Shown: positions 43,087-47,300 of the stretch, piece after piece
Layout: each line of letters starts with the position of its first letter
How positions within the stretch are numbered: position 1 is the stretch's first letter
Assembly: GCA_947589345.1 (NCBI GenBank)
Contig: CANQAC010000001.1
Location: forward strand, 1 to 54,756
DNA length: 54,756 bases
Reading direction: 5' to 3'
Source of the DNA: an uncultured Akkermansia sp.
Lineage (GTDB): Bacteria > Verrucomicrobiota > Verrucomicrobiia > Verrucomicrobiales > Akkermansiaceae
Program-made: the position numbers and the translations under genes
The notes under the pieces: model-generated
Seen by the model: only the letters and a program-made list of their open reading frames with translations
Databases searched by the model: none
Told to the model about the DNA's origin: nothing

Positions 43087-43596
43087 ATGAGTACAGAAAA
43101 GAAAGTGAATACTGACAAGGAGACAATTATCTCCCAGTTGCTTGAGAAGGTGAATGGTTCGCCGTTCCTGATTGTCATTGATTACGCTGGGGTGAGCGTA
43201 CCGGAGTTCACGGCCCTGCGTGCGTCATTGGCCGCTGGAGGTGCCTCTTGCACTGTGGCTAAAAACTCCTACATGGCCAAGGCTCTTGCCCAGGCAGGAC
43301 TCCCGGATATTTCTTCCGCTCTCAAGGGGCAGACAGCTTACGTTACCGGACAGAGTGATATCTGCGCTGCCGCTAAGGTCATCAATACCTTCTTCAAGGC
43401 CTCTAAAAAGGCCGATTATAAGACAGGTATTCTCGACGGAGCTCAGCTGACACCCGACAAGATCAGGGCGTTAGGCGAATTGCCCAGCCGTGAGGTGCTT
43501 CTCGCTACCTTGCTCGGTACCATCAACGGAGCCGGGGCTGCTCTTGCCCGAGTCATTCAGGCGCATGTCGATCAACAAGGCGGTACAACTGAGTAA
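43087..43596 (+). CDS. rplJ: 50S ribosomal protein L10
   Basis: L10 carries the L7/L12 dimers on the stalk. The 169-residue product has the usual opening domain (FLIVIDYAGVSVPEFTALRASLAAGGASCTVAKNSYMAKAL), and a C-terminal helix (REVLLATLLGTINGAGAALARVIQAHVDQQ) for L12 binding. ATG 43087 lies 23 bases after rplA; no ribosome site. The gap to rplL (166 bases) is unusually long and structured. Confidence 0.97.
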   Translation: MSTEKKVNTDKETIISQLLEKVNGSPFLIVIDYAGVSVPEFTALRASLAAGGASCTVAKNSYMAKALAQAGLPDISSALKGQTAYVTGQSDICAAAKVINTFFKASKKADYKTGILDGAQLTPDKIRALGELPSREVLLATLLGTINGAGAALARVIQAHVDQQGGTTE

Positions 43597-43631
43597 TCTG
43601 TGTCATTACCCCAAAAAAGACTTGAACAGAT

Positions 43632-43741
43632 GGCGGTGGTGTGGTATCACTTTTCGCCGCCTGAAAAAATTAGGTTCTCTGTCGGCTCTCCGGCCGGTGA
43701 GGACTGAAATGGATGGGGAGCCCCCATCCGCGACAAGAACC
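43632..43741 (+). ncRNA. Structured RNA between rplJ and rplL
   Basis: A first hairpin pairs GGCGG (43632-43636) with CCGCC (43657-43661). A second, composite fold closes with GGTTCT (43673-43678) and AGAACC (43736-43741), continues with GTCG (43681-43684) and CGAC (43731-43734), and encloses an 8-bp hairpin GGATGGGG (43711-43718)/CCCCATCC (43722-43729) plus a weak CCGG/CCGG element. It probably regulates or processes the mRNA for the multi-copy L7/L12. Confidence 0.55.
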
Positions 43742-43762
43742 AATTAAATAACACACAATACA

Positions 43763-44140
43763 ATGGCTGATATAAATACGATCGCTGAGGAACTCGGTAA
43801 ACTCACTATTCTGGAGGCTGCCGAACTCGTTAAACTGCTCGAAGAGAAGTGGGGTGTTTCCGCTGCAGCGCCTGTGGCTGCTGCAGCTCCGGGCGCTGCC
43901 GCTCCTGCTGAGGCTGCTGAGGAAAAGACCGACTTCAATGTCGAGCTTACCGATGCTGGAGCTAACAAGATTGCCGTCATTAAGGCGGTTCGTACGGTCA
44001 AGCCCGGTCTGGGCCTGGCTGATGCCAAGAAGCTTGTAGAAGGCGCTCCTGCTGTCATCCTTGAGGGTGCTTCCAAAGAGGATGCCGATAAAGCTAAGGC
44101 TGAGCTCGAGAAAGCCGGTGCTAAGGTTACTATCAAGTAA
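43763..44140 (+). CDS. rplL: 50S ribosomal protein L7/L12
   Basis: The flexible stalk protein that recruits translation factors. The 125-residue product has an N-terminal dimer domain ([24 protein letters not shown]), an Ala/Pro-rich hinge (residues 36-53), and the conserved C-terminal domain ([24 protein letters not shown] through [17 protein letters not shown]). It lies between two structured intergenic RNAs. No ribosome site precedes the ATG. Confidence 0.98.
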
Positions 44141-44153
44141 TCCGTCGCCTTTT

Positions 44154-44193
44154 GCGAAGGCAGGGAAGGACCGAGTCCTCCCCTGCGCTTCGC
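44154..44193 (+). terminator. Long hairpin just after rplL
   Basis: GCGAAG (44154-44159) and CAGGG (44161-44165) and GGA pair with TCC, CCCTG (44181-44185) and CTTCGC (44188-44193), with small internal bulges. No T-run follows. It could stabilise or process the rplL 3' end. Confidence 0.6.
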
Positions 44194-44265
44194 ATTCTCG
44201 GCGTATTGGGGGGTCTTGCCTCATTTCTCCTTTTTTATAAACATCTAACCTCTCCTCTATAAGAT

Positions 44266-44335
44266 CGACCCGGTGCGCGCATTCGCGTACGCGTCAAGTG
44301 CCCCGGGTCGGTTTTATTCCAACCTAAAACCGACC
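44266..44335 (+). promoter_or_regulatory. Candidate two-state attenuator before rpoB
   Basis: State 1: CGACCCGG (44266-44273) pairs with CCGGGTCG (44303-44310) and is followed by GTTTTATT, resembling a terminator. State 2: GGTCGGTTTT (44306-44315) pairs perfectly with AAAACCGACC (44326-44335). The arms overlap at 44306-44310, so only one can form at a time. A further hairpin, GCA-CCGG/CCGG-TGC (44337-44355), follows before the rpoB ATG. Confidence 0.65.
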
Positions 44336-44377
44336 TGCATCCGGGATCCGGGTGCAAAACCCAATTTCCGCTACTCC

Positions 44378-47300
44378 ATGTCCAAGCCCAAGCAAGAGCG
44401 AATTAGTTTCGGCAAGATCACTGAGGTTATCCAGCCACCGAACCTCATTGAGATACAAACCAAATCCTACGAAGAGTTTCTGCAACGTTTCACAGCTTCG
44501 GGAAAGCGGCTCAAGGTGGGGCTGCAGGCTGTGCTCGCAGAACATTTCCCGATAGAGAGTTATGATTCGCAAATCCGCTTGGAGTTTATCTCCTACGAGA
44601 TATCGCCGCCCAAAATGAGCGATTTTGCGGCAATCCGCGCCGGGGAGACGTACAGTTCTTCTCTTTACATTCGCTTTCGCCTGAAGTGCAATGATTACAC
44701 GGCTGAAGAGGACGTTTACATGGGAGAAATTCCCATGATTACTGACCGCGGCACTTTTGTCATCAATGGTGCTGAACGTGTCATCGTGGCTCAGTTGCAC
44801 CGCTCTCCGGGCATTTGTTACGAGAAAACACGCCACGCTAATGGCAAAGAGCTTTTCTCTTTCCGTATCATCCCGGATCGCGGATCATGGCTTGAGGTGC
44901 AGTTCGACACGAACGATCTCATGTACGTGTACTTGGATCGTCGTCGCCGTCGTCGCAAGTTTTTAGCAACGACCTTTTTGCGTTATCTCGGGTATGAGAC
45001 AGATCGGTCCATTGTGGAGCAGTTTTATACCATCCAGAAGCTGCGCGTAGCAGATGTCAGCGGTGATGAGCTGGAATATCTTGTGCCGTTTGAAGATGTG
45101 AAGTACAGCGAGAAGAATTCGCCGCGTCCGGCTTCGGTGATTGCTAAGGCATACGAACCGCTTAGCCTCGCTACGATTCGAAAGATGCAGGAGCTGGGCA
45201 TTAAGACGGTTGAGGTGATAGATCAGCGTGAGGATGAACTGCTGGTCAAAACCCTTAAGAAGGATCTCTCATTTGACCGTGATAGTGCACTCAAAGAAAT
45301 CTTCCGCAAGTTCCGTCCGGGGGATCCCACTTCCGTCCAACAGGCAGCGGCTGCCTTGGATAGATTGTTCCGTGAAGAGAAACGCTACGACCTCACCCGG
45401 GTAGGACGCTACAAGATCAACCAAAAACTTGGTTTGGATGTACCGGAGGATGTAAGGCTCATTCAGCCCATAGATTTCCTCACGGCGGTCAAGTATTTGT
45501 TGCGCTTGCGTCACGGTGAGGGATCTGTAGACGACATTGACCATTTGGGCAATCGACGGGTTCGTGCTGTTGGAGAGCTAATCGCTAACCAGTGCCGGGT
45601 TGGCTTTGCTCGCACCGAGCGTTTGGTGAAGGAACGCATGACTCTTTGCGACACGACGCGCAACGATCTTACCCCCAGCAAACTGATCAATCCCAAGGCG
45701 CTTAGCGCTGTGGTGCGCGATTTCTTCGGCCGCAGCCAGCTTTCCCAGTTCATGGATCAAATTAATCCGCTGGCCGAGCTGACCCACAAGCGACGTCTCT
45801 CGGCTCTTGGTCCGGGCGGCTTAAACCGAGATCGGGCTGGCCTTGAAGTGCGAGACGTTCATCCTTCGCATTACGGTCGCATTTGCCCCATTGAGACGCC
45901 TGAAGGTCCCAACATTGGCCTTATCAACTCTCTCTGCACCTACGCTCGCATTGACGAGTACGGGTTCATTGAGACACCTTTCCGAAAAGTTAAGACGATT
46001 GAGAAGAAGAATAAGAAGGGAGGAGTAGATACGGAGGTGATTATCACCAACGAGGTGGAGTATCTTTCCGCTGACAAAGAGGAGTATCACCTCATCGCTC
46101 AGGCTAATAACCCCATCGACAACGATAATGGTCACGGCCACTTTGTTAAGCCTCGAGTCACCGCTCGTGAACACGGCGAGTTCATTGAAGTGGATCCCCG
46201 GCGTGTGGAGTACATGGATGTGTCTCCCAAGCAGATCATATCTATTGCAGCTGGTCTTATTCCTTTCTTGGAACATGACGACGCTAACCGTGCCCTCATG
46301 GGTGCGAACATGCAACGCCAAGGCGTGCCGCTCATGGTCAATCAGGCTCCATTGGTGGGTACCGGCATTGAGGCCAAGTGTGCTCGCGATAGTGGTGCTG
46401 TGGTTGTTGCAGCCGGCCCCGGCATAGTAGCTTCTGCTACGGCGGAGTACATTGTGACCACCAAAGATGGTGAATTGCCGGTGGCTCCCCAGCGATGGCT
46501 GAGTGATCCGGATTGCCTCAAAACGGATCCGGAGAAAGGCATCTATGTATATCAGTTGCGCAAATTCATGCGCTCCAATGCGTCCACGTGCATCAACCAA
46601 CGCCCGATTGTGGCGCGTGGAACTAAGGTAAAGGCCGGGGACGTGTTGGCCGATGGTCCCTGCACGGATGGTGGGGAACTTGCCTTGGGACGCAATGTGC
46701 TGGTGGCTTACATGTCATGGTACGGATATAACTTCGAGGATGCGATCATCATCTCTGAGCGTTTGGTCCAGGAGGACGCCTACACTTCCATCCACATTGA
46801 GGAGTTTGAAGAGAAGGCCCGCGATACGAAGCTTGGTCCGGAGGAGATCACGCGCGACATTCCCAACGTGGGTGATGAAGCTCTCAAGAATTTGGGCAGT
46901 GATGGCGTAGTACGTATTGGTGCTGAGGTAAAGCCCGGGGATATTCTGGTCGGCAAAATTAGCCCGAAGAGTGAGACTGACCTTGCGCCGGAGGAACGTC
47001 TGCTGCGTGCTATTTTCGGCGAAAAAGCAGCAGATGTGAAAGATACGTCGTTGCGTGTACCACCTGGCACCACGGGCGTGGTCATGGATGTTCGTATCGT
47101 CCGCTCTGTGGCTCCGGGAGCTCCGGAGTTAGACTCCGAGAAAGAAGCTCAGAAACAGCGTAAAAAGGTGGATGAAGAGTACGTACGCGATAAGAAGAAT
47201 CTTATTGATTTGCTCACCAGTCGCCTCTCCGACCGGCTGCTTGGCGAGAAAATCCCGCTGGAGGTGACTCGTGTCGGTACCGGCGAGGTACTCATCCCGG

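Follow-up and report, generated by a model that had tools for sequence, protein, structure and literature searches.

The gap between rplL and rpoB in Akkermansia holds an array of four hairpins (A–D): B and D are RNA structures under selection, and C shares a strand with B and is predicted to form only once B has been opened. Our preferred reading, which we put forward tentatively, is that the gap is a multi-hairpin spacer or leader that may uncouple rpoBC from rplL by cleavage at A and B, with or without some termination, with C forming afterwards. The original prediction for this region was a classical terminator/antiterminator layout; both the element order and the poor U-run tails contradict it.

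The window, i.e. the whole 54,756-nt stretch that was analysed, has the gene order rplJ-rplL-gap-rpoB-rpoC, which bears out the predicted placement of the two stems between rplL and rpoB. The upstream gene, rplL (ribosomal protein L7/L12; 43763–44140, + strand), is a 125-aa ORF, and an rplL orthologue adjoins rpoB at 63 Akkermansia loci. The rpoB start codon lies at 44378–44380 (+) and opens an N-terminus, MSKPKQERISFGK, that is kept across Akkermansia relatives. An N-terminal extension of RpoB from an in-frame GTG at 44273 was disfavoured, the conserved start being MSKPKQERISF at 44378. No Shine-Dalgarno sequence was found 5′ of the rpoB start in the window sequence; the stretch from hairpin D to the rpoB AUG (44357–44377, +) is CAUCUCCGCC-like and is well conserved genus-wide despite this absence. 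At the far end of the same operon, the rpoC terminator of the window consists of an 11-bp stem followed by eight T, indicating that the organism does use ordinary terminators. Between rplJ and rplL (43622–43661, +), we also observed a promoter-like sequence (TTGAAC-17 nt-TATCAC) overlapping an inverted repeat (GGCGGTG...CGCCGCC); it is conserved in Akkermansia, with TTGACA or TTGACC as the −35 element in some members, and would represent an internal promoter for rplL-rpoBC.

Hairpin A (44153–44194, +) is a strong stem-loop that begins 12 nt downstream of the rplL stop codon and, in the window, lacks a proper U-run. Hairpin B (44260–44316, +; fold z −5.1) is formed by UAAGAUCGACCCGG and CCGGGUCGGUUUUA around a variable apical part. 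Its core is an 8-bp stem of CGACCCGG (44266–44273) with CCGGGTCG (44303–44310), which six further pairs (UAAGAU with GUUUUA) extend to 14 consecutive pairs (44260–44273/44303–44316); an interrupted U-run, GTTTTATT, lies at its 3′ edge (44311–44318, +). Hairpin C (44306–44335, +; GGUCGGUUUU/AAAACCGACC) is a perfect 10-bp stem in which GGTCGGTTTT (44306–44315) pairs with AAAACCGACC (44326–44335). The original prediction had described an 8-bp stem followed by GTTTTATT and a perfect 10-bp stem sharing 44306–44310, and this is exact in the sequence. The two stems are also mutually exclusive, as had been proposed, since 44306–44315 belongs to both: with its 14 bp, B competes for all ten bases of the 5′ arm of C. 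Hairpin D (44336–44356, +; UGCAUCCGG GAU CCGGGUGCA; fold z −3.25) ends 21 nt before the rpoB start and, like A, is part of the same array as B and C. Against dinucleotide shuffles, z scores of −5.1 (44260–44316), −4.25 (44300–44345) and −5.0 (whole gap) were obtained, and no shuffle folded as well. A nested pairing of the 5′ arms of B and D around C was seen when the RNA ended before the 3′ arm of D, and was no longer the minimum with D complete.

The spacer between A and B (44195–44259 in the window) is between about 10 and 90 nt long across Akkermansia, and in some lineages (e.g. L064 and L056) an extra GC-rich hairpin (GCGCGCGCCTTCGCG, GTGCGCGTGCGCAC) is found directly 5′ of B. We considered whether the spacer is of the C-rich, G-poor Rho type; cytosine exceeded guanine more than 1.5-fold in only 32 of 59 spacers, and the feature is thus not conserved.

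Among 76 Akkermansia genomes, the rpoB start was located in 63, all of which yielded an rplL-rpoB gap (59 distinct sequences). Hairpins A, B and D are kept in 63/63 gaps and C in nearly all, with the arms of B, the arms of C and hairpin D aligning throughout; the apical loop of B, about 11–43 nt long, shows no conservation of sequence. When the initial 62 nt of each gap were folded, hairpin A had a median of 17 pairs, −31 kcal/mol and a shuffle z of −6.1 (n=59), and its arms are divergent in sequence yet complementary. A covariance model of B and D detected one strong copy per genome, located before rpoB, in 63/63 (E values from 8e-12 to 1e-28), a result that speaks for consistency rather than being an independent test, as the model was built from the same 63 gaps; its antisense matches are these hairpins in mirror image. 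No strong match to this model was found in other genera among 289 genomes of the order. The best of the weak matches outside Akkermansia had an E value of 1.3e-5, and five weak matches that were fetched (G038, G297, G100, G255 and G256) had no rpoB alongside. Rfam 15 at gathering scores returned two tRNAs only for the window, and at relaxed E values it returned only chance-level microRNA and sRNA models for 43560–44420.

Sister genera of the same family (20 gaps) again have a hairpin after rplL and, in most gaps, a further long hairpin, with unrelated sequence. A run of TTTTT or TTTTTT comes after this first hairpin in a few of these gaps (L116, L126 and L134), which suggests that the position equivalent to the E. 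coli attenuator, if there is one, is A and not B/C. Many sister-genus gaps also have a hairpin before rpoB. In L118–L124, L127 and L128, the last ~60 nt before rpoB contain a longer hairpin and a near-invariant CUCAACUUGCAAGCA-type sequence, apparently the counterpart of hairpin D. A crude scan, in which hairpin borders were assigned automatically, gave no convincing C-like partner in the sister genera.

Because related sequences can mimic covariation, we assessed each stem against a tree-aware null, in which a tree was derived from the flanking coding sequence and alignment columns were simulated independently along it (400 simulations). For B, the covariation total was 1.13 (null mean −1.43, sd 0.34, maximum −0.50), and 10 of the 17 alignment pairs show changes on both sides; cells of B were paired in 90.8 % of cases, vs 81.1 % for shuffles and no more than 54.5 % after a slide of one to three columns. 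For D, the total was 0.06 (null −0.66, sd 0.22, maximum 0.03). Both stems exceed all 400 simulations, establishing them as selected RNA structures. The total for C, −0.38, falls inside the null range (mean −0.78, sd 0.25, maximum −0.22). Compensatory changes were found at two of its pairs in the Akkermansia alignment; pair 81–101 changes from U-A to C-G (tree-aware p = 0.003), and the outer pairs 73–113 and 74–111 often fail. C was better than 95 % of 3′-side shuffles in 43/59 sequences, a count that understates L064, L067 and L068, where the motif search clipped the 3′ side of C. On average, C arms from one species paired better with each other than with those of another species (−11.3 vs −10.4 kcal/mol). 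In L027, L063 and L065, C is weak or broken. Taken as a whole, C is a probable but not proven selected structure. Covariation in relatives was one of the checks named in the original prediction, and the structure survives it, with B covarying strongly and C weakly.

For naked RNA at 37 °C, thermodynamic predictions indicate the order in which these hairpins would form. B was predicted in 56/59 transcripts ending at the U-run and in 53/59 full gaps, C being predicted in four of the latter; when the RNA started inside the 3′ arm of B, such that the 5′ strand of B was removed, C was predicted in 53/59. C is less stable than B by a median of 4.8 kcal/mol (4.2 kcal/mol in the window), and by up to about 8 kcal/mol in A. 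muciniphila relatives. In these predictions, B comes before C and is the ground state, and since C competes for a strand of B and has its 3′ arm downstream, it would form only after B opens.

These results bear directly on the classical attenuator reading, which casts B as an intrinsic terminator and C as its antiterminator. Attenuators place the antiterminator ahead of the terminator (PMC4538822). Here, the 3′ arm of C (44326–44335) is downstream of the U-run of B (44312–44318) and is therefore made past the point at which B would terminate, so C cannot antiterminate B. The roles cannot be exchanged either, as C is followed by UGCAUCC and has no U-run with which to serve as a terminator; none was found after C or D in the window. 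The mutual exclusivity of the stems and the GTTTTATT tail of the window (six T in eight) favour the classical reading, but this tail is not conserved: B has at most four T in 8 nt in 46/59 distinct sequences. In relatives the tail is mostly TTTTACCA/TTTTACCG (mostly TTTTACC), with four U in most species; the A. muciniphila group has UUCCGUCU, TTCCGTCT or similar, with no U-run. A terminator scan that recovered the rpoC terminator returned neither B nor C, with the caveat that its loop limit would miss B. We consider this reading very improbable. A leaky terminator at A, acting as the true attenuator as in E. coli with B–D as mere leader, is a better candidate that we still regard as distinctly unlikely, and it overlaps with the cleavage-spacer reading that we prefer. 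Hairpin A sits where E. coli has its terminator-like hairpin, and the U-runs after the first hairpin of some sister genera point the same way; however, the A stem of Akkermansia is longer and poor in U-run, and a lenient terminator criterion picked out only a handful of the 59 sequences, the window not among them.

The remaining alternatives concern what C does. In one, the element is a regulated RNA switch in which a factor (RNA polymerase subunits, the L10–L12 complex, NusA/NusG or another protein) stabilizes B or C and thereby alters pausing, Rho access, stability or translation of the rpoBC mRNA. Such a switch would fit the retention of B, C and D alongside a freely varying apical loop in B, the two-sided changes that maintain complementarity at two pairs of C and the small energy difference between B and C in many species, the window included (+4.2 kcal/mol). 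Autogenous control of E. coli rpoBC at the level of translation, for which PMC10931766 cites Passador and Linn (1989), is a further point in its favour. Set against it are the weak covariation of C under the tree-aware null, the large energetic disadvantage of C in A. muciniphila relatives and the lack of a match to any known binding motif or Rfam family for the B/C/D element; we regard a regulated switch as rather doubtful. Somewhat less probable in our judgement is that A, B and D are functional and that the exchange is incidental, C being complementary mainly because its 3′ arm resembles the 5′ arm of B and both are conserved for some other reason, e.g. protein binding. The covariation total of C within the null range, the failing outer pairs, the three loci with a weak or broken C and the missing C-like partner in the crude sister-genus scan all favour this reading, but the shuffle test, the compensatory change at 81–101 and the better pairing of native over swapped arms argue against it. 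It is also doubtful, if conceivable, that we are dealing with an undescribed genus-wide RNA element that sets RNA polymerase synthesis through strand exchange between B and the downstream C, possibly triggered by cleavage or by a protein; an exchange of this kind would be the reverse of the usual attenuator order.

We return to the uncoupling spacer as the reading we prefer. A and B may split the rplL message from that of rpoBC; the most likely means is double-strand (RNase III-type) cleavage, accompanied or not by some loss of transcription. Once the 5′ strand of B had been cut off or invaded, the freed strand could refold as C, leaving the rpoBC message with C and D as 5′-proximal hairpins. 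Such a spacer would let rpoBC expression differ from that of the upstream ribosomal genes, and C would be a follow-on fold rather than an antiterminator, given that it forms only after B is opened. The computed behaviour of B, C and D is consistent with this account, in which cleavage, refolding in vivo and the effect on expression are what we infer. Several observations speak for it: B and D lie beyond all null simulations, B is the default fold and C appears once the 5′ strand of B is removed, each genome has one strong copy before rpoB, sister genera keep hairpins with different sequence, and E. coli has the same order of a hairpin and then a long stem together with known attenuation and RNA processing. 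Against it, the fit of the stem length to RNase III is loose, C might itself be a state under regulation instead of arising from cleavage as a by-product, it is weak or broken at the three loci named above, and partial termination at A is conceivable.

A second conserved RNA was observed directly before rplL (43671–43763, +). It is a three-way junction of the type GGUUCCUCGUCGG-hairpin-CUGAAAUG-hairpin-CGCGACGAUACC, in which an outer stem encloses an invariant CUNAAA and a pair of covarying hairpins, and compensatory changes were found at 12 of its 16 predicted pairs (34 sequences). It has no Rfam match. A model of this leader was found once per genome in 42/288 genomes of a phylum sample that included other families of the order and class; the hits fall in Akkermansiaceae and further Verrucomicrobiae families, and rplL was directly downstream in 8/8 cases fetched from other families. 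The main text of a 2020 survey of new ribosomal leaders mentions neither L10, L12 nor Verrucomicrobia. This RNA is a candidate for a new L12 or L10–L12 leader; it is more widely conserved than the gap element and may constitute a new ribosomal-protein leader.

How one operon yields different outputs of ribosomal protein and RNA polymerase has been best studied in E. coli, and Akkermansia is a gut bacterium that attracts much research. The element at its rplL-rpoB junction, single-copy and supported by covariation, offers a target for distinguishing termination, cleavage and refolding, and the corrected logic (a downstream competitor and no conserved U-run) guides which experiments would separate the three.

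The E. coli MG1655 gap is 319 nt long and contains an 11-bp hairpin with TTTTT 39 nt after rplL and, further on, a long imperfect stem. The processing enzyme is RNase III, which acts in this stem. The Akkermansia gap resembles it in its place between rplL and rpoB within one operon and in having a strong hairpin soon after rplL and then a long imperfect stem; it differs in that the E. coli hairpin is an 11-bp terminator with TTTTT, whereas A and B of Akkermansia have no conserved U-run and no U-run terminator follows rplL in the window. The original prediction appealed to attenuation in E. coli, and the rplL-rpoB region of that species is indeed described as an attenuator (PMC4670729). The E. 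coli region is also reported to be processed, in a statement for which PMC5371410 cites Barry et al. (1980), whereas cleavage in Akkermansia is a candidate only. The L10(L12)4 attenuator of B. subtilis rplJL, which consists of an anti-antiterminator, an antiterminator and a terminator (PMC4538822), is likewise a series of overlapping, strand-sharing hairpins in a ribosomal-protein/polymerase gene cluster. In B. subtilis, however, the alternatives lie upstream of the hairpin that they prevent and the last hairpin carries a U-run, whereas C of Akkermansia lies downstream and has none; and the B. subtilis attenuator precedes rplJ, whereas the Akkermansia element precedes rpoB.
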